This document shows positions 1 to 12,738 of a DNA stretch of 13,025 nt, piece by piece. Both the position numbers and the translations under genes were made by a program. Position 1 is the first letter of the stretch; each line of letters starts with the position of its first letter. This DNA is from Thiotrichales bacterium (GTDB lineage: Bacteria; Pseudomonadota; Gammaproteobacteria; PS1; Pseudothioglobaceae): the NCBI GenBank assembly GCA_002711905.1, contig PASI01000023.1, positions 1-13,025 of the forward strand. Direction: 5' to 3'. The notes beneath the pieces are model-generated. The model was not told the origin of the DNA, made no database searches, and worked only from the letters and a program-made list of their open reading frames with translations.

Positions 1-33
1 GCTGATAGGTATCAAATTGACTATAGGTTATGA
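1..33 (+). CDS. possible C-terminal end of an upstream gene (partial)
   Basis: The first frame is open from base 1 to a TGA at 31-33 and reads ADRYQIDYRL. This stop overlaps the ATG of the next gene in an ATGA arrangement (30-33), which is typical of translationally coupled operon genes. The second frame is also open, to a TGA at 35-37, so the reading frame of any upstream gene is not certain. Ten residues are too few to identify a family. The ATGA overlap is the only support. Confidence 0.3.
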   Translation, partial: ADRYQIDYRL

Positions 34-815
34 GTGAATTAACGATCCTCTTTTTATTACTTGGCGCCTTTTCTGGTTTTGTAGCAGGCCTTCTTGGCAT
101 TGGTGGTGGTTTAATAATTGTCCCAGTATTGCTTTATCTATTGGCCCCATCGATAGATCAATCAATCTTAATGCATACCTCAATTGGAACTGCTCTAGCG
201 GTCATTGTCTTTACATCTATCTCAAGTCTTTATGCTCATCATCGTCATGGCGCTATTCTTTGGAGAAACTTTGTTAAGCTTACTCCAACAATTCTGTTGG
301 GCTCATATAGCGGGGCTATTTTGGCGAAATATTTGAGCTTTGACTTTCTAAGAATGTTCTTTGCTTTTTTTGAAATTACTGTGGCTTTAATTATGTGGTT
401 TGGCATCAGTGCATCCAGCCATGCTGATAACTTATCAAGGTGGATTTGGTCTTTTGCAGGTTATTTTATTGGTTTGATTTCAGCCATGGTTGGAATTGGT
501 GGCGGGACAATGACCACTCCATTCTTAGTTTATAACAATGTTGAAATTAAAAACGCTATTGCAACTTCTGCAGCAGTTGGAATGCCAATTGCTATTGCTG
601 GAAGTATTGGTTTTGTGGTGGCTGGTTTATCTCAAGCTCTTCCAACTGGAGGTATTGGTTTTGTAAACTTTGAAGCGCTGATTACAATAGTTGCTGCGAG
701 TATTTTTTTTGCACCATTAGGAGCAAAAGTTACACATAAGTTGGATAGCAATAAACTCAAAAAAGGCTTTTCAATTTTCTTGGCTTTTCTTGCAGCAATG
801 GTGCTTTTATTTTAA
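30..815 (+). CDS. TSUP (TauE/SafE) family membrane permease
   Basis: A 261-residue integral membrane protein of the TSUP / TauE-SafE (DUF81) family. Members export or import small anions such as sulfite, sulfoacetate or other organosulfur acids across the inner membrane. The sequence shows the two homologous halves of the family, each opening with a glycine-rich motif followed by a proline: GLLGIGGGLIIVP near residues 20-32 and AMVGIGGGTMTTP near 150-163. About seven to eight hydrophobic segments are visible and the length is normal. The ATG overlaps a possible upstream stop codon, suggesting it is the last gene of an operon. In Pseudomonas a TSUP gene of this kind lies near ptsP and lgt, but neither gene is visible here. 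The substrate cannot be told from sequence. Confidence 0.85.
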   Translation: MSELTILFLLLGAFSGFVAGLLGIGGGLIIVPVLLYLLAPSIDQSILMHTSIGTALAVIVFTSISSLYAHHRHGAILWRNFVKLTPTILLGSYSGAILAKYLSFDFLRMFFAFFEITVALIMWFGISASSHADNLSRWIWSFAGYFIGLISAMVGIGGGTMTTPFLVYNNVEIKNAIATSAAVGMPIAIAGSIGFVVAGLSQALPTGGIGFVNFEALITIVAASIFFAPLGAKVTHKLDSNKLKKGFSIFLAFLAAMVLLF

Positions 816-5422: not shown

Positions 5423-5450
5423 TTGCGAGGCTTTTAATCCATTATATAAT
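5423..5450 (+). promoter_or_regulatory. putative promoter of the CoA-thioester operon, with palindromic -10
   Basis: TTGCGA (5423-5428) and a perfect TATAAT (5445-5450) are 16 bp apart, which would place the start of transcription near 5457 and leave a leader of about 50 nt before the first gene. The -10 lies in a perfect 10-bp palindrome, ATTATATAAT (5441-5450), so a TATAAT also faces engB on the minus strand (5441-5446). I see no good -35 box for that direction. Motif match only. Confidence 0.45.
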
Positions 5451-5505: not shown

Positions 5506-6027
5506 ATGGATAACGAAATATATCTAAAAAGAGAATACAAGTACTTTTCTAAAGAAGATAATTTAAATGAACCTTTAGCTCTCTACAATGCCAAAGTCGA
5601 TCCAGACTGGATTGATTACAATGGGCATATGAGTGAGTCATTCTACCTCTACGCATTTGGCGATGCATCCGATGCTTTGTTTCAATATATAGGGATTGAT
5701 AATAACTATAGAATGGCGGGTCAATCCTTCTATACAGTAGAGACACACATCAATTACTATTTGGAAGCTTCAGAGGGCGAACCTTTAAAGTTTCTGACAC
5801 AGGTGCTTGGATTAGACTCCAAAAGACTCCACATTTTCCATCAGATGTTTCATGGCGATACAGGTGACTTATTGGCAACCACTGAACAAATGATAATTCA
5901 TGTTGATATGAAGAAAGCAAGAGCGAGCGAAATTGATCATGATGTGTTTGAAATTCTTGAAAAGGTATGGAATTCTCACCAAAAATTACCATCACCGAAA
6001 CAAAAAGGTCGAGTGATGAAAATATAA
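5506..6027 (+). CDS. acyl-CoA thioesterase, betainyl-CoA thioesterase-like
   Basis: A 173-residue single hotdog-fold (4HBT-like) thioesterase. It carries the family's active-site motif as D37-Y-N-G-H41-M, then FGDASDALF (51-59), SFYTVETH (74-81), KRLHIFHQMFH (106-116), and ATTEQMIIHVD (124-134). From memory of the family, this pattern matches the thioesterase found beside, or fused to the C-terminus of, L-carnitine 3-dehydrogenase, which hydrolyses betainyl-CoA to glycine betaine and CoA. It heads a four-gene operon ending in CaiD, which supports a carnitine or gamma-butyrobetaine role. The ATG has no strong Shine-Dalgarno; a weak ACAGG lies 15 bp upstream. It could act on another short CoA ester, such as a different trimethylammonium or sulfonium acyl-CoA. 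The fold is secure; the substrate is inferred. Confidence 0.8.
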   Translation: MDNEIYLKREYKYFSKEDNLNEPLALYNAKVDPDWIDYNGHMSESFYLYAFGDASDALFQYIGIDNNYRMAGQSFYTVETHINYYLEASEGEPLKFLTQVLGLDSKRLHIFHQMFHGDTGDLLATTEQMIIHVDMKKARASEIDHDVFEILEKVWNSHQKLPSPKQKGRVMKI

Positions 6028-6051
6028 ATTAAATTAATTCAAGGAAGAAAA

Positions 6052-7209
6052 ATGGATTTTGGACTTACAAATGAGCAACAAATGATTATTGACTCTGTCA
6101 AAAGTTTTGTTGAAAAGGAGCTCTATCCTTTTGAAGATGACGTTGAAAAGAGCAATAAGATTGAAGAATCAGTTGCAGAGAATATAAAGCAAAAAGCAAT
6201 TGAAAGTGGTATTTATGCTTGCAATATGCCTGAAATTCATGGTGGTGGTGGTCTTGATACACTAACTTTATGCCTTTTAGAAAAGGAATTAGGTAAAGCA
6301 AATTTTGGACTTCAGTATATTGTTGCCAGGCCAAGTAATATTTTATTGGCATGTAAGGGGTCACAAATTGATGATTATCTTCTACCAACTATCCGAGGAG
6401 ATAAAGTTGACTGTCTTGCGATGACTGAGCCTAACGCTGGTTCAGATGTTCGTTCGATGAAATGTAAAGCAGAGCGAGATGGTGATTTCTTTGTAATTAA
6501 TGGATCAAAGCATTTCATAAGTCATGCAGATATGGCTGACTTTGTTATTTTATTTGCAGCCTCAGGAGTTGAGCAAACTTCTAGAGGTGAGAAAAAAAAG
6601 ATTACCAGTTTTTTGATTGATATGGGAACACCCGGTTTTTCTGTAGAGCCAGGTTATAACAGCGTCTCTCATAGAGGCTATCATAATTTCATTCTTAATT
6701 TTGATAACTGCCGTGTTCACGAATCACAGGTGTTGGGCGACGTTGACCATGGTTTTGATGTTGCTAATGAGTGGTTAGGCGCTACTCGATTATCCGTTGC
6801 TGCGATGTGTCTTGGTAGGGCTGAAAGAGCTTTACAGATAGCCACTGAGTGGGCCGCGACACGTGAACAATTTGGTCAACGCATTGGTAAATTTCAAGGC
6901 GTCTCTTTTAAACTGGCTGATATGTCTATGGAGCTTCAGGCTGCAGAACTTTTGACTCTTAAGGCTGCCTGGAAGGATACTCAAGGTGAAATGACTGATA
7001 GTGATGCCGCGATGGCAAAACTTAAGGCGACTGAAACGCTTGCGATGATTTCAGATGAGGCCATCCAAATATTAGGAGGTATGGGCTTGATGGATGAACT
7101 CCCTTTAGAGAGGATATGGAGAGATCATCGTGTTGAAAGGATCTGGGATGGCACTAGCGAAATTCAAAGACATATTATTTCTAGATCACTTCTTAGGCCA
7201 TTTGAGTAG
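6052..7209 (+). CDS. acyl-CoA dehydrogenase, probable gamma-butyrobetainyl-CoA / CaiA-type
   Basis: A 385-residue FAD-dependent acyl-CoA dehydrogenase, which forms an alpha-beta double bond and passes electrons to ETF. Family motifs are clear: TEPNAGSD (125-132), INGSKHFISHA (149-159), REQFGQRIGKFQ (271-282), LGGMGLM (341-347) and the C-terminal WDGTSEIQR (365-373). The place of the catalytic glutamate (YEGT in MCAD) holds Asp366. The alternative catalytic site of isovaleryl-CoA dehydrogenase (helix G) holds Thr245, so Asp366 is the only likely base. In this operon, between a betainyl-CoA-type thioesterase and CaiD, the probable reaction is gamma-butyrobetainyl-CoA to crotonobetainyl-CoA, or the reverse. 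A good ribosome site (AAGGAAG, about 6 bp upstream) precedes the ATG. Only 6 bp separate it from the ligase gene. Family certain, substrate inferred. Confidence 0.88.
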   Translation: MDFGLTNEQQMIIDSVKSFVEKELYPFEDDVEKSNKIEESVAENIKQKAIESGIYACNMPEIHGGGGLDTLTLCLLEKELGKANFGLQYIVARPSNILLACKGSQIDDYLLPTIRGDKVDCLAMTEPNAGSDVRSMKCKAERDGDFFVINGSKHFISHADMADFVILFAASGVEQTSRGEKKKITSFLIDMGTPGFSVEPGYNSVSHRGYHNFILNFDNCRVHESQVLGDVDHGFDVANEWLGATRLSVAAMCLGRAERALQIATEWAATREQFGQRIGKFQGVSFKLADMSMELQAAELLTLKAAWKDTQGEMTDSDAAMAKLKATETLAMISDEAIQILGGMGLMDELPLERIWRDHRVERIWDGTSEIQRHIISRSLLRPFE

Positions 7210-7215
7210 CCCCTT

Positions 7216-9273
7216 ATGAGCAGAAGTAATTTGCATCGATTAATATCTCCAAAATCAATTGCTGTAGTTGGAAATCGAGGTGCTGATTTTGCTATTAAAG
7301 AGTCAAAAAAGTTAGGCTTTAATCATAAAATATGGGCTGTTCATCCAACTTTGGATAAACTTGAAGGCATCCAATGTTATAGAGACATTAAAGATTTGCC
7401 TGAGGCTCCCGATGCAACGTTTATCGCTGTTAATGCAGAATCAGCTATCGAGATAGTTTCTGATCTCAAGTCAATGGGAGGTGGTGGAGCAGTTTTATAC
7501 GCCTCAGGATTTGGAGAAGTTGGTGATAAAGGTGCGAAACGAAACCAGAGATTATTTGAAGCAGCAAATGGAATGCCGCTCATTGGCCCGAACTGTTACG
7601 GATTCGTCAATAGTCTCGATAGAGTTGCACTTTGGCCCGATGTTAATGGATGTGACCATGTTAGTGAGGGCGTTGCAATCATTACTCAAAGCGGAAATAT
7701 CGGTCTAAATATGACTATGCAATCCTCTGGCCTTCCAATTGCCTATATGTTTACAGTGGGCAATCAGACAAACACAAATATTGCAGATATTATTCATGCA
7801 ATGTTGGATGATACAAGAGTTAATGCGATTGGCCTTCATATCGAAGGTATTAAAGATATTAAGTCATTTGATAGTGCTGCAAGAAGAGCACTCAAAATGA
7901 AAGTACCAATCATTGCAATTAAATCAGGTAAGACTTCAGCCTCTGCTAAGATTGCTCTAAGCCATACAAGCTCCTTGACGGGGTCAGATGAATTATTTAG
8001 TTTCTATTTTGAAAGACTCGGTATTGCCAGAGTCGATTCAGTCCCTGAATTTCTTGAGACCCTAAAACTGTTAAGTGCTGTAGGGGTTATTGACCATAAT
8101 GGTGTTGCCTCTATGAGCTGTTCAGGAGGAGAGGCTGGAATGATGGCTGATTTAATTGATGGCATGGAGATCGCTTTTCCAAGCCTTACTGACTCTCACA
8201 AAAGTAAAGTCAAACAAACACTAAATGAATATGTTGAAGTAGATAATCCATTGGATTATCATACATTTATTTGGGGTGATCTAAAAAGAACATCAGAGTG
8301 TTTTAAACAAATGATTAATGGAAGTTTTGCTGCTACCATGTTGTTGTTAGATTGGCCAAAAACATCGGAATCTGAACAAAAAGATTGGGATACAACGCTT
8401 TTAGCACTTTCGGACGCAATCACTGGAACAAATGAAAAGGCAATAGTGCTTGCATCTATGGCAGACTGCATGCCAAAACGAATCATAGATGAATGTCTGA
8501 ATTACGGTATTACCCCTATGATTGGCTTAGACACTTGCCTCAAAGCTCTCAACCACTCTTACAAAATTGGACGCGCTTTTAAGCGAGAAGAAACACCAGC
8601 AATAAATATAATTCAAGGTAGTTTAGAAAGTAATGCAAGCAGGCAATTAACTGAATTTGAGGGAAAGCAGCTTATTAAGAATTATGGAGTTTCAATTCCA
8701 AAGGGAGTCATCATAAAAAATCTATCTGAAGCATTAAAGGCTGCTGAAGATATCACTTATCCAGTTACACTAAAGGTCTCAAGCCTTGAGTTAGCCCATA
8801 AGACCGAGCTAGGCGCTGTCAGGCTTAATATTCAAGACTCTGAAATGCTGGAAAAAGCCTGTCATGATTTATTCAAAATTGACTCTTCTCTGTTAATTGA
8901 AAAAATGATTAAAGATTCTGTGTGTGAATTAATCATTGGTGTTGACCATGATCCAACATTTGGAAAGCATGTCATCATTGGTGGTGGTGGCGTATTTGTT
9001 GAAATACTACAAGACAGTTCATTATTGCTTTTACCAGTGACAAGAGAGGATGTCTTATTGGCGCTTTCAAAGCTAAAAGTGTATCCCTTACTCGGCGGTT
9101 ATAGGGGGAATTCAAAAGGAGATATAGAGTCTGTTGTGGATGCGGTTATCTCAATCATTGCGTTAATTAAAGAAAATGATGTTTTAGAGTTGGATATTAA
9201 CCCATTGATTGTTTTAAAAGAAAAAAAAGGTGTTGTTGCAGCTGATGTACTTATCAGGTTAAATTCAGACTAG
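7216..9273 (+). CDS. ADP-forming acid-CoA ligase (fused alpha/beta NDP-forming acyl-CoA synthetase)
   Basis: A 685-residue enzyme of the NDP-forming acyl-CoA synthetase family, related to succinyl-CoA synthetase, which makes an acyl-CoA from acid, CoA and ATP with release of ADP and phosphate. The alpha part comes first: a CoA-binding Rossmann domain ([10 protein letters not shown] at the N-terminus, [11 protein letters not shown] near 121-131) and a ligase domain with the phosphohistidine candidate H250 in [12 protein letters not shown]. After a linker near 455-475 comes the ATP-grasp beta part: [19 protein letters not shown] around H528, [29 protein letters not shown] and LDINPL. The acetyltransferase domain of E. 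coli PatZ is absent. It starts 6 bp after the dehydrogenase with no visible Shine-Dalgarno, so translation is probably coupled. In context it probably activates the operon's substrate (gamma-butyrobetaine, crotonobetaine or carnitine), in place of CaiB/CaiC. Substrate inferred. Confidence 0.87.
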
Positions 9274-9295
9274 GAAACTTTATATTGAGGAAATT

Positions 9296-10081
9296 ATGAA
9301 TAATGCTATAAATTTTGAGTTGCATGATGAAGTTATGCTCATAACTTTAGACCGTCCAAAAGCTAATGCGATTGATGCCGAAACAAGTCATATGTTGGGC
9401 GAGGCGTTTATTCGCTATAGAGATGATAAAAACCTACGAGTTGCTATCATTACCGGTGCTGGAGATCGTTTTTTTTGCGGCGGATGGGACTTAAAAGCGG
9501 CATCAGAGGGCGAAGCTGTTGATGCAGATTTTGGGCCTGGAGGCTTTGCAGGGCTTACAGAACTATGGGATTTAGATAAGCCAGTCATTGCAGCTGTTAA
9601 TGGACTAGCGGTTGGTGGTGGTTTCGAGTTGGCTCTTGCAGCAGACCTCATTATTGCATCAAGTAATGCAGAATTTTTTGTTCCTGAGGCTACTTTAGGA
9701 ATCATTCCAGATAGTGGCGGAGTATTAAGACTCCCTCGCCGACTACCAAAAGCAGTGGCTATGGATATGCTCTTGACAGGGAGAAGAATGACAGTTGATG
9801 AGGCCAAACATTTTGGCCTTGTTAATAGAAGCTGTGAACAGGAAGATTTAGTCAATGAGGCGCTTGATTGGGCTCATCAGATTGCCATGTCTGCACCACT
9901 CTCATTGGCCGCAATAAAGTCAGTTGTTCGTAAGACAGAGGCTATGGATTTAGAGAGTGCATACGAGTCTATGCGTTCTGGAGAGATTGAAGCTTACCAG
10001 AGAATGCTTCATTCTGAGGACGCCAAAGAAGGCCCCTTGGCTTTTTCAGAAAAACGGCCCCCAAAATGGAAAGGAAAATAA
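9296..10081 (+). CDS. caiD: crotonobetainyl-CoA hydratase (carnitinyl-CoA dehydratase) CaiD
   Basis: A 261-residue crotonase-family enzyme that interconverts crotonobetainyl-CoA and L-carnitinyl-CoA. Long stretches agree with E. coli CaiD as I remember it: [11 protein letters not shown] (18-28), WDLKAA (64-69), [14 protein letters not shown] (76-89), [11 protein letters not shown] (93-103), [11 protein letters not shown] (107-117), [10 protein letters not shown] (138-147), HSEDA (239-243) and the C-terminal WKGK. The two catalytic glutamates are at E111 and E131, the same numbers as in E. coli CaiD. This identity is far stronger than for generic enoyl-CoA hydratases and gives the operon its likely substrate class. 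The ribosome site GAGGAAA lies close before the ATG, 22 bp after the ligase stop. It is the last gene of the operon, and a strong promoter for the cytochromes follows directly. Confidence 0.92.
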
Positions 10082-10135: not shown

Positions 10136-10447
10136 ATGAAGAAGATTTTTTATATATTAATCACTTTTGTTTTGACTGCTTTTTCTATGAGCTCTCTCGC
10201 TAATAGTGAGGGAGAGGCAATGTATAACGCATTGGGTTGTGCTAGTTGTCATGGTGAAAATGGTCGCTCTAAAGATGAATCTATTCCTTCTCTAGCAGGC
10301 AATGATGTTGATTGGATTGTTCAGCAGCTCGAGTATTTTCAATCTGGCGAACGGCAAAATGCATACATGAATGCGATGGCTCCAATGGCTGAAGGCTTTG
10401 AGCAATCGATAGCAGAATATCTCGCGATTCAAGACCCACAGAAATAA
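10136..10447 (+). CDS. small periplasmic monoheme cytochrome c (c4-like half)
   Basis: A 103-residue secreted c-type cytochrome and probable periplasmic electron carrier. A lysine-led hydrophobic signal peptide covers about residues 1-22 (cleavage near SSLA-N). One heme-attachment motif, CASCH, lies at 35-39. The sixth heme ligand is probably a methionine in YMNAMAPMA (78-86), since this region lines up with ERKNAMMAG of the next gene. It is like one half of cytochrome c4: the SLAGNDVDWIVQQLEYFQSGER stretch parallels KLAGQGEAYIVKQLQYFKSGER there, so the pair may have arisen by duplication. In Pseudomonas a small cytochrome also lies between engB and the c4 gene, which supports common ancestry of the locus. 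Its redox partners are not shown by the sequence; a terminal oxidase is likely. Confidence 0.88.
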   Translation: MKKIFYILITFVLTAFSMSSLANSEGEAMYNALGCASCHGENGRSKDESIPSLAGNDVDWIVQQLEYFQSGERQNAYMNAMAPMAEGFEQSIAEYLAIQDPQK

Positions 10448-10509: not shown

Positions 10510-10535
10510 TTCTTGGAATTTTTTGGAGATTGAGA

Positions 10536-11174
10536 ATGAAAAAAATCGTTATTATTTTAGCTTCTATACTTATCACTTCGTTGAGTAACCCGATATTAGC
10601 TGTAGGAGATGCAGAGGCAGGCCAAGCAAAATCTGCTACTTGTATGGGTTGTCACGGTCTTGCAGGAAATAGTACGATTCCAAATTTTCCTAAATTGGCA
10701 GGCCAGGGTGAGGCTTACATTGTAAAGCAGCTCCAATATTTCAAGTCAGGTGAAAGAAAGAATGCAATGATGGCAGGTGTCGCTTTGTCGCTTTCTGATC
10801 AAGATATGGAAGATGTTGCAGCTTACTACTCAATCCAAACAATCAGCGAAAATTCCGCACAAGGTTCAGAGAAAATGATTGAGCTTGGCAGAAAAATTTA
10901 TGTTGGTGGTAAGATGGATACACAAACGACAGCGTGTATCGCGTGTCATGGTCCGAAAGGAAAAGGCATTCCAACTGCTGGCTTTCCATCTGTAGCTGCT
11001 CAGCATGCAGACTATACAGCGTCTCAGTTAAAGGCTTTCCGTCAATATTCTATTAATCAGCAGACAGACTCTGATGGCGTTGAAAGAGTCAATGAGATGA
11101 TGAATAATGTTGCTATGGGATTAACAAACGAAGAGATTGACGCGTTGTCTCAGTATATCGCTGGACTTCACTGA
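10536..11174 (+). CDS. diheme cytochrome c4
   Basis: A periplasmic diheme cytochrome c4, which carries electrons, probably to a terminal oxidase. From the ATG at 10536 it has 212 residues: a signal peptide (about 1-22, ending PILA), then two homologous cytochrome c domains with heme motifs CMGCH (36-40) and CIACH (134-138). Probable axial methionines are M78/M79 (ERKNAMMAG) and M188/M189 (VNEMMNN). Length and two-domain layout are normal for the family. I chose 10536 because GGAG (10525-10528) lies 7 bp before it; the longer frame opens with a TTG at 10530 that is too near that site. It follows the small cytochrome by 88 bp and converges with the SDR gene. Confidence 0.92.
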   Translation: MKKIVIILASILITSLSNPILAVGDAEAGQAKSATCMGCHGLAGNSTIPNFPKLAGQGEAYIVKQLQYFKSGERKNAMMAGVALSLSDQDMEDVAAYYSIQTISENSAQGSEKMIELGRKIYVGGKMDTQTTACIACHGPKGKGIPTAGFPSVAAQHADYTASQLKAFRQYSINQQTDSDGVERVNEMMNNVAMGLTNEEIDALSQYIAGLH

Positions 11175-11204: not shown

Positions 11205-11972
11205 TTAGTCCATCCTCTCTGTATTGCCATCCACTGTCATAATTTGACCTGAGATTCTGTGGGCTTCATTCGATAATAGAAATACCACCATATTGGCAAT
11301 ATCCTCTTTGTCAACGAATGTTTTGAGGGAAACCATGCCCTCAAAATCCTCTCTAACCTCCTTTTCATCAACACTAAGAGATTCTGCCTTTGCCTTTATG
11401 ACTCGGTTGATTCGATCTCCTGAAACTGATCCAGGGCAAATCGCATTGACTCTTATATTGAACTGACCAAGCTCCATAGCCAATGATTTAGTAACCCCTA
11501 TGATTGCCCACTTAGAGGCTGCATAAGGGGTCCTTAATGGAAAGCCAAAGATTCCTGCTGTAGAAGACAGGTTGACGATTGAGCCGCCTTTATCCTTTAA
11601 AAGTGGGATTGCATCTTTTGTGAAATAAAAATGACTATTTAAATTAGTATCAATTGTATTTTTCCAGTCATCAACTGATACTTCTTCCATCATGCTGGTT
11701 GGTCCGGCAATGCCAACGTTATTAATTAAGGCGCTAATACTTGATACTTTATTACGCAGAGATTCAAAGTATTGATTGACTGATTCAGGGTCACTTGCAT
11801 TGATATTTTCAATAAATAATCTTTTATTAATGAGTGGATGTTTACTGACCTCATCAATTTTTTTTTGATTAATGTCCGATGCATAGACCGTGAATCCTTG
11901 CTCTAACAAAGCGCTTGCAATGCACCAACCAATTCCATCTGCCGCTGCTGAAATAACTACATTTTTGCTCAC
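11205..11972 (-). CDS. short-chain dehydrogenase/reductase (SDR), classical type
   Basis: A classical NAD(P)-dependent SDR oxidoreductase of 255 residues from a GTG at 11972. The nucleotide-binding motif reads ISAAADGIG (7-15), in which the usual TG is SA. Asp33 at the end of the second strand suggests NAD rather than NADP. NNVG lies at 84-87, and the catalytic S137, Y150 and K154 are all in place, followed by NAICPGSVSGDRINR and ISGQIMTVDG. The longer frame starts at a TTG at 11987; neither start has a clear ribosome site, and the GTG gives the normal SDR N-terminus. It lies just downstream of a TSUP permease in the same direction, so the two are probably one operon. The substrate is unknown. 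A 3-hydroxyacyl (carnitinyl-CoA-like) dehydrogenase is one possibility given the nearby operon, but nothing in the sequence shows it. Confidence 0.85.
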   Translation of the reverse strand: MSKNVVISAAADGIGWCIASALLEQGFTVYASDINQKKIDEVSKHPLINKRLFIENINASDPESVNQYFESLRNKVSSISALINNVGIAGPTSMMEEVSVDDWKNTIDTNLNSHFYFTKDAIPLLKDKGGSIVNLSSTAGIFGFPLRTPYAASKWAIIGVTKSLAMELGQFNIRVNAICPGSVSGDRINRVIKAKAESLSVDEKEVREDFEGMVSLKTFVDKEDIANMVVFLLSNEAHRISGQIMTVDGNTERMD

Positions 11973-12000
11973 GGTGCCATAAAACAAGTTGTTCTAATTA

Positions 12001-12738
12001 TTAAAACAATAATACCAACCCCGCAAGAAAAATAAGTCCCAGAATAACTTGTCTAAAAAGGGTCTCATTTATGAGTGCATAAATCTTGATGCCAATCCAA
12101 GATCCAAGCATGAGTGCAGGAAATGCTTTCAGAAAGTTATAAAAAATATCTAAAGTCAAAAATCCAGCAAAATAAAAACTGATAACAGCTGCAATGCTGG
12201 TTATAAATATGAATGGCTCATATGTTCCGCGCTGAGTATTTTTTGGAAGCCTTTGAAGATTGACCCAGATTGTTGGGAGTATACCGCCCAGTGCAGCAAA
12301 CCCTCCCAGTATTCCACTGATAAAGCCGATAAATTTATCAAGAGTCGGATTGCTTTTAAAGTTTATTAAAATGTTTTTACTTCTGAATTTCCAGATTGAG
12401 AAGACAACTAATATAAATCCAACAGTCGTCTTAAAGATAGTCGGATCAGTAATAGTCAAAATGAGCAAACCGGTCGGTATTCCAATGACACCAAAAACTA
12501 CAAACGACTTGAGTTTAGAGAAGTCTAAAGTTTTACGTAGCTTATAGATTGGAAGAGCAGAGACAAACAAACAGGAGACAATGTTTAATGAAATTGCAGC
12601 TGAAGGCTCAAGAATATGAAGCCAAAAAGCGTTCAGTACAATCCCACTACCAAAGCCCGTTGCACCCTGTACAATACCTGCAAAGAAGGCGCCAAAAAGC
12701 AATATTGACTGAAAAATGACTGGATCTGAAATGAGCAT
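12001..12738 (-). CDS. TSUP (TauE/SafE) family membrane permease, second copy
   Basis: A 245-residue membrane protein of the TSUP / TauE-SafE family. The first half-motif is GIVQGATGFGSGI (about 20-32), a subgroup variant of the glycine-rich motif seen in the protein at 30-815. The second half opens with GFISGILGGFAALGGILP. About seven to eight hydrophobic segments are present. The two window paralogues differ clearly in these motifs, so they are not a recent duplication and may carry different substrates. The gene is transcribed towards the SDR, so the permease may import a substrate for the SDR or export its product. The ATG at 12738 has no Shine-Dalgarno. It is divergent from the GMC oxidoreductase across 100 bp. 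Confidence 0.85.
   Translation of the reverse strand: MLISDPVIFQSILLFGAFFAGIVQGATGFGSGIVLNAFWLHILEPSAAISLNIVSCLFVSALPIYKLRKTLDFSKLKSFVVFGVIGIPTGLLILTITDPTIFKTTVGFILVVFSIWKFRSKNILINFKSNPTLDKFIGFISGILGGFAALGGILPTIWVNLQRLPKNTQRGTYEPFIFITSIAAVISFYFAGFLTLDIFYNFLKAFPALMLGSWIGIKIYALINETLFRQVILGLIFLAGLVLLF

Follow-up and report, generated by a model that had tools for sequence, protein, structure and literature searches.

A four-gene operon of a Pseudothioglobaceae bacterium as a candidate oxygen-independent route from gamma-butyrobetaine to L-carnitine

Which acid is activated, oxidized, hydrated and released by four adjacent genes that combine a CaiD-type hydratase with an ADP-forming acyl-coenzyme A (CoA) ligase? 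This question is raised by a stretch of 13,025 nucleotides (contig PASI01000023.1 of assembly GCA_002711905.1, Thiotrichales bacterium; hereafter the window), which lies in contig C17 of a genome of 852,504 bases with an estimated completeness of 58%. Its closest relatives with a name are genomes of the Candidatus Thioglobus/SUP05 type, and the tree labels give the family Pseudothioglobaceae. We propose that the operon probably carries out an oxygen-independent hydroxylation of gamma-butyrobetaine to L-carnitine via CoA esters.

A preliminary description of the window had pointed to four co-directional genes separated by gaps of 24, 6 and 22 bp, and the list of open reading frames together with Pfam and NCBIfam bears out both the coordinates and the families. 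All four reading frames start with ATG. The genes and the residues discussed below are:

5506 to 6027, + strand: 4HBT_2 thioesterase (173 amino acids), proposed carnitinyl-CoA thioesterase (Pfam/NCBIfam; tree with thioesterases fused to carnitine dehydrogenase)
6052 to 7209, + strand: acyl-CoA dehydrogenase (385 amino acids), proposed gamma-butyrobetainyl-CoA dehydrogenase (Pfam/NCBIfam; conserved in 36 loci)
7147 to 7149, + strand: Asp366 of the dehydrogenase (alignment of the motif IWDGTSEIQR)
7216 to 9273, + strand: fused NDP(ADP)-forming acyl-CoA ligase (685 amino acids), proposed gamma-butyrobetaine:CoA ligase
7963 to 7965, + strand: His250 of the ligase (alignment with the phosphohistidine His292 of DddX)
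8257 to 8274, + strand: ligase loop 348-353 (YHTFIW) with Tyr348 and Trp353 (clade versus control columns)
8353 to 8388, + strand: ligase loop 380-391 with Trp380 and Trp391 (clade versus control columns; Trp391 in the column of DddX Phe435)
9296 to 10081, + strand: CaiD-type crotonobetainyl-CoA hydratase (261 amino acids; identity to E. coli and Proteus CaiD, tree)
9626 to 9628, + strand: Glu111 of CaiD (aligned to Glu111 of E. coli CaiD)
9686 to 9688, + strand: Glu131 of CaiD (aligned to Glu131 of E. coli CaiD)

In the proposed sequence of events the ligase would first form gamma-butyrobetainyl-CoA through the phosphohistidine His250, with the trimethylammonium head of the substrate held in an aromatic cage. 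The acyl-CoA dehydrogenase, judged by its family and context, would then yield crotonobetainyl-CoA, to which CaiD would add water to give carnitinyl-CoA, and the thioesterase would set free L-carnitine. In most sequenced relatives a carnitine 3-dehydrogenase and an enzyme of the BKACE family, usually encoded elsewhere, would lead from carnitine towards glycine betaine. We regard this pathway assignment as well supported by the comparisons of genes and genomes given below, while the substrate is predicted.

The hydratase gene carries the crotonase domain ECH_1, and its best NCBIfam model is that of crotonobetainyl-CoA hydratase (PRK03580, 392.4 bits). E. coli CaiD acts on crotonobetainyl-CoA, and the window protein is 60.5% identical to it and 62.8% identical to Proteus CaiD. 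In a tree of 45 rows a clade of 39 rows (98/96) unites the window protein with the E. coli, Proteus and alphaproteobacterial CaiD, so that the phylogenetic check proposed in the preliminary description places it inside the CaiD clade. PaaF, PaaG, ScpB, MenB and two further crotonases encoded at the loci lie outside it, on long branches that make the exact position of the root uncertain. The alignment keeps both residues of the catalytic pair of E. coli CaiD, Glu111 and Glu131. Hydration of crotonobetainyl-CoA, a known activity of the family, is supported for the window protein by clade and residues, and the assignment is one of clade membership and not of an NCBI equivalog.

The arrangement of the genes was compared in 39 loci, obtained from one contig scan with the ligase, whose neighbouring genes were matched to the window proteins. 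The dehydrogenase stands directly upstream of the ligase in all 36 readable loci (3 are cut off), CaiD directly downstream in 30 of 35 (4 cut off), and the thioesterase precedes the dehydrogenase in 28 of 34 (5 cut off), fused to carnitine dehydrogenase in two of these 28 (L022 and L039). The recurrence of the partners shows that the arrangement is not due to chance, and the four genes do co-occur elsewhere, a point on which the preliminary description had made its reading depend. Wherever the thioesterase is present and the CaiD site is readable, CaiD is found (25/25 loci). The five loci without an adjacent CaiD (L017, L020, L031, L036, L037, all of Oceanospirillaceae type) keep dehydrogenase and ligase and represent about two lineages in the ligase tree. 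The operon thioesterase is absent from the same five and from L034, whose CaiD site is cut. A CaiD-like gene occurs elsewhere in the genome for each of the five, with 48-49% identity in the three examined. One TAG codon was flagged in the ligase matches of G069, G070, G021 and G079, which correspond to L032, L009, L010 and L011 (matched via the coordinates of carnitine dehydrogenase); since the ligase frame is open to its end in these loci, we take the TAG as the gene's own stop.

A further hint towards the substrate arises from the linkage to carnitine genes. In Aestuariispira insulae (L022) the order is an AraC-type regulator, BKACE, a fusion of carnitine 3-dehydrogenase and thioesterase, dehydrogenase, ligase and CaiD. 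The same order with an additional ABC transporter occurs in R. johnstonii pRL10, Sinorhizobium B11 and R. etli IE4803, where the BKACE place is annotated as "3-keto-5-aminohexanoate cleavage protein" (pRL10 and B11), a name which we take to denote the BKACE family, or as "hypothetical" (IE4803). Paracoccus methylovorus and Pseudooceanicola possess the same gene set in rearranged form. Partial sets were found in Ruegeria AD91A (regulator, dehydrogenase, ligase and CaiD, with no carnitine 3-dehydrogenase or BKACE within the stretch examined), in Paracoccus aminophilus (CaiD, BKACE and carnitine 3-dehydrogenase, but no ligase nearby) and in Aminobacter SR38 (a crotonase with 3HCDH- and BKACE-type genes). 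In the neighbourhood of ten loci of Oceanospirillaceae type, protein clusters and one annotated locus point to BHMT- and MTTB-type genes and a GbdR-like regulator; downstream in Thioglobus-type loci there are a transporter of ChoXWV/ProXWV type and a choline dehydrogenase (L002 annotated). The search of other genomes for the ligase clade together with CaiD and the thioesterase, which had been suggested at the outset, thus also revealed clustering with carnitine 3-dehydrogenase and BKACE in several Alphaproteobacteria. At E <= 1e-60, carnitine 3-dehydrogenase is matched in 34 and CaiD in 35 of the 39 ligase-bearing genomes. As a separate observation, MTTB-family methyltransferase genes (L025:15725-17338, L049, L050) are neighbours of the ligase cluster in Oceanospirillaceae-type loci and of the carnitine dehydrogenase cluster in Thioglobus-type loci.

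The ligase contains the domains CoA_binding_2, Succ_CoA_lig and ATP-grasp_5, all above the Pfam cut-offs, and therefore is a fused NDP-forming ligase. Its clade is annotated merely as "acetate--CoA ligase family protein" or similarly in the records examined. The nearest solved structure is DddX (TM score 0.88), an ATP-dependent lyase of the NDP-forming family that acts on the sulfonium acid dimethylsulfoniopropionate (DMSP) (PMC8163506); identity to it is 29.0% over 696 columns and lies under the criterion of >30% set for DddX by its authors. His250, aligned with the phosphohistidine of DddX, is kept in 45 of 45 clade rows and lies in the swinging loop (239-255), modelled with a predicted local distance difference test score below 50. 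The lyase base Glu432 of DddX is replaced by Gln388 and is never Glu in the 45 clade rows, and because this base is not kept the ligase is expected to activate its acid without elimination, unlike DddX. A DMSP lyase of the DddX type is ruled out, as there is no equivalent of Glu432 and as CaiD and the carnitine genes have no role in DMSP cleavage.

The aromatic residues of the two loops distinguish the clade from ten control ligases. Tyr348 and Trp353 are each present in 47 of 47 clade rows, and no control has an aromatic residue in either column (one gap at 353). Column 380 is aromatic in 46/47 clade rows and in 0/10 controls, 8 of which have gaps there, and column 391 in 47/47 (46 Trp, one Tyr) and 2/10, respectively. 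Of the onium-binding pair Trp391/Phe435 of DddX, Phe435 matches the ligase Trp391 in both alignments. The clade likely comprises betaine:CoA ligases, as far as motif and context can predict. The preliminary description had called a ligase of this family acting on a quaternary-ammonium acid a notable assignment; the clade-specific aromatics at the sulfonium loops of DddX speak for it, and DddX itself sets the precedent of an onium-acid ligase in this family (PMC8163506). Among the listed matches in the open-licence literature, taken by titles and abstract openings and exclusive of patents, no paper assigns an ADP-forming ligase to gamma-butyrobetaine.

The acyl-CoA dehydrogenase is the most conserved of the four genes (59-98% identity in the 36 loci holding it). 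The motif IWDGTSEIQR occurs in every aligned row except E. coli CaiA and places Asp366 at the catalytic site where many members of the family have Glu and E. coli CaiA has Gly. With 194.5 bits against a cut-off of 540 bits in the CaiA model the dehydrogenase is not CaiA; the NCBIfam names it receives are general ones.

For the thioesterase the sole NCBIfam match is to PRK07531, a model of carnitine 3-dehydrogenase, of which it covers the C-terminal third (167.6 bits, profile positions 336-491 of 495). The closest relatives of the operon thioesterase are domains fused to carnitine dehydrogenase, and in the tree it shares a clade (99/99) with the fusion of Aestuariispira. Genomes of the genus possess a further thioesterase, which stands next to BKACE as part of a carnitine dehydrogenase fusion (8 loci) and occupies a separate branch of the tree. 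Because of this second enzyme the operon thioesterase would more likely act on carnitinyl-CoA, and we lean towards a division of labour in which the thioesterase beside BKACE serves betainyl-CoA and the one with CaiD serves carnitinyl-CoA. The initial assignment of a product-releasing thioesterase is thereby retained with its target changed from betainyl-CoA, which we no longer favour as the sole substrate of the operon enzyme. That reading keeps some probability, since in alphaproteobacterial clusters with one fused thioesterase this enzyme must serve both steps, or the ligase must run in reverse.

Several observations weigh against the proposed route. The window CaiD scores below the PRK03580 cut-off of 500 bits, which E. 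coli CaiD (562.7) and Proteus CaiD (550.6) surpass. This cut-off looks narrow, because the CaiD proteins of Rhizobium (314.5) and Aestuariispira (373.4), both adjoining carnitine genes, miss it as well and none of the 39 relatives pass it. In the ligase, the counterpart of DddX Trp391 depends on the alignment (Trp353 in that with 45 clade rows, His349 in that with 47 clade rows), and clade-specific aromatics are also found outside the two loops (Tyr128, Trp140). The window further has no choline/betaine-type transporter at the place where Thioglobus-type loci carry one; a TauE-type gene (12001-12738) directly follows the gene of a short-chain dehydrogenase/reductase (SDR).

The genomic co-occurrence has to be read with similar caution. 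It was counted in 80 genomes of the family, with which the set of 39 ligase-bearing genomes overlaps, at a ligase threshold of E <= 1e-60. The ligase is present in 24 of the 80 (22/26 genomes of the window's genus, 2/2 of a second genus and 0/52 others), and BKACE in 25 of the same two genera. Ligase and BKACE occur together in 21 genomes, the ligase alone in 3, BKACE alone in 4 and neither in 52 (Fisher p 2e-12), an association that within one family is confounded by shared descent. Matches to the carnitine 3-dehydrogenase model (E <= 0.001) occur in 39 genomes. Of these, 25 are strong (E < ~2e-101) and again belong to the two genera, the remainder being weak and common to ordinary genomes. 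None of the 25 reaches the cut-off of NF005471; the one full-length match tested (L051) scores 713 bits with the fusion model PRK07531, above the 592 bits required. In the window's own genome, 58% complete, no BKACE and at best weak matches to carnitine dehydrogenase (E 8e-15) were found. Of the route towards glycine betaine put forward in the preliminary description, the operon itself would cover the part up to carnitine; the later steps are encoded elsewhere.

Most relatives also encode a gamma-butyrobetaine dioxygenase, and the operon therefore often is a second route beside it. The model TIGR02409 is matched above its cut-off in 23 of 29 genus genomes, and among the 39 ligase-bearing genomes 31 have a match (E <= 1e-60), 18 of them over the cut-off. 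In the 14 genus genomes of at least 89% completeness, a threshold chosen afterwards, carnitine 3-dehydrogenase and BKACE are always present; ten have ligase and dioxygenase, two the ligase only (G026, G068), two the dioxygenase only (G031, G045) and none lacks both. In G068 there is a dioxygenase-like match, though a weaker one (246 bits), while G026 (94% complete) has ligase, carnitine 3-dehydrogenase and BKACE and no TIGR02409 match. The natural reading is that the operon represents an oxygen-independent alternative to the dioxygenase; the frequent presence of both could also mean that it serves another acid.

The activation step calls for a similar qualification. The list of open reading frames holds no CaiB or CaiC in the operon. 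In the 29 genus genomes (E <= 1e-20) no close ortholog of either was seen: CaiB-like proteins occur in nine (best 32% identical), and CaiC-like AMP-forming ligases in 28, the window's included (best 33% identical). Activation could in principle also be aided by an AMP-forming ligase of general type. Of the earlier claim that an ADP-forming ligase takes the place of CaiB and CaiC, the enzyme family and the absence of both from the operon stand, and another activator may act beside it.

Among the alternatives we first consider a variant in which the ligase belongs to a class of ADP-forming ligases specific for gamma-butyrobetaine or betaines and works reversibly. It would activate gamma-butyrobetaine and also free carnitine from carnitinyl-CoA with recovery of ATP, and so take over the functions of CaiC and CaiB alike; the thioesterase would then act as a pull or as a safety valve. 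We consider this rather unlikely; if true, it would provide SUP05-type ocean bacteria with a nearly cost-free oxygen-independent hydroxylation of gamma-butyrobetaine beside the oxygen-dependent dioxygenase.

In another reading a different onium or short-chain carboxylic acid, such as another betaine or a sulfonium acid, would pass through part of beta-oxidation and then be released from its thioester, and CaiD would work on a related enoyl-CoA. The use of DMSP by the nearest solved relative of the ligase (PMC8163506), whose own substrate is predicted only, is consistent with this idea, as is the frequent presence of the dioxygenase. We judge it unlikely in view of the position of the window protein within the CaiD clade, the single clusters in which carnitine 3-dehydrogenase and BKACE accompany these genes (Aestuariispira, Rhizobium, Sinorhizobium, Paracoccus and Pseudooceanicola), and the lack of an equivalent of the DddX base.

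Crotonobetaine might instead be the main substrate, converted to carnitine by ligase, CaiD and thioesterase, with the dehydrogenase in a side or balancing role. The dioxygenase already handles gamma-butyrobetaine in most of these genomes and crotonobetainyl-CoA is the substrate of E. coli CaiD, yet the dehydrogenase would then be needless although no partner of the ligase is more constant, and G026 has the ligase and the downstream genes without a dioxygenase match, so that crotonobetaine appears quite improbable in this role. Very improbable is a generic short-chain fatty-acid module with incidental likeness to carnitine enzymes, which the general names of the dehydrogenase, the CaiD score and a Paraburkholderia control ligase between genes of an acyl-CoA and a 3-hydroxyacyl-CoA dehydrogenase (such pairs thus exist beyond carnitine metabolism) would allow, but against which stand the clade-specific ligase aromatics, the CaiD clade, the linkage to carnitine genes and the co-occurrence.

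The proposed route from gamma-butyrobetaine to L-carnitine can be compared with four known systems. With the E. coli operon caiTABCDE, which serves anaerobic carnitine reduction, it shares a CaiD of the same clade and the CoA-ester chemistry on gamma-butyrobetaine, crotonobetaine and carnitine. It differs in its ADP-forming ligase as activator without CaiB and CaiC, in a dehydrogenase that is not CaiA-like and in a presumably oxidative direction. An operon of the E. coli type is ruled out by the absence of CaiB and CaiC and by the CaiA model score. With DddX the window ligase shares the fused NDP-forming fold, the phosphohistidine and, for the substrate proposed here, an onium carboxylic acid; low identity and the missing lyase base set it apart. 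The dioxygenase route (BBOX, carnitine 3-dehydrogenase, BKACE), described for islands of SAR11 (PMC12421898), has the same start, the intermediate carnitine and the downstream enzymes in common with ours; there one dioxygenase performs the hydroxylation, in contrast to ligase, dehydrogenase and hydratase here. Proteomics of R. pomeroyi on carnitine is reported in PMC12478193.

A parallel to the route as a whole comes from the strains HK4, HK13 and HK1349 (Lonza; a strain between Agrobacterium and Rhizobium). The passages available from PMC2131755 describe a route analogous to fatty acid degradation and do not name a CoA ligase, and a table of this review puts the HK4 strains under gamma-butyrobetaine hydroxylase. 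The ligase of HK4 may by analogy be the ADP-forming ligase described here, because the Rhizobium and Sinorhizobium clusters (pRL10, B11, IE4803) carry it with carnitine genes. The HK4 route reportedly runs through CoA esters, and a patent is said to name bco genes for it.

Regarding the surroundings, CaiD is succeeded by two c-type cytochrome genes of the same orientation (10136-10447 and 10530-11174); of the 39 relatives, 18 have genes of this kind as well (20 loci counting the window and its own copy L001). The SDR gene (11205-11987, - strand) corresponds to one that in relatives stands between the operon and the choline/betaine-type ABC transporter. In L049 an SDR that is 43% like this one adjoins carnitine dehydrogenase and BKACE, for which reason the window SDR may belong to the same metabolism as the operon. 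Pfam assigns TauE/SafE-type transporters to both ends of the window (30-815 and 12001-12738, the latter on the - strand). A scan for promoters and terminators gave 18 promoter-like sites in comparison to 13.8 (sd 3.3) in shuffled sequences and has no evidential weight; one site with 10 of 12 matching positions (5423-5450) lies upstream of the operon and was not counted as evidence.

The family of each step is already known, and a comparable overall route is reported from HK4. What is new is the predicted assignment of the ligase, its wide occurrence in bacteria of the ocean and of soil, and the way in which it parallels the dioxygenase. Glycine betaine, to which gamma-butyrobetaine and carnitine lead, serves as an osmolyte in the sea and as a donor of methyl groups. 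The operon singles out a likely clade of betaine:CoA ligases with a testable aromatic motif and directs attention to genes possibly responsible for the industrial L-carnitine route of HK4 in rhizobia-like strains. For SUP05-type bacteria it would provide an oxygen-independent counterpart of gamma-butyrobetaine dioxygenase.

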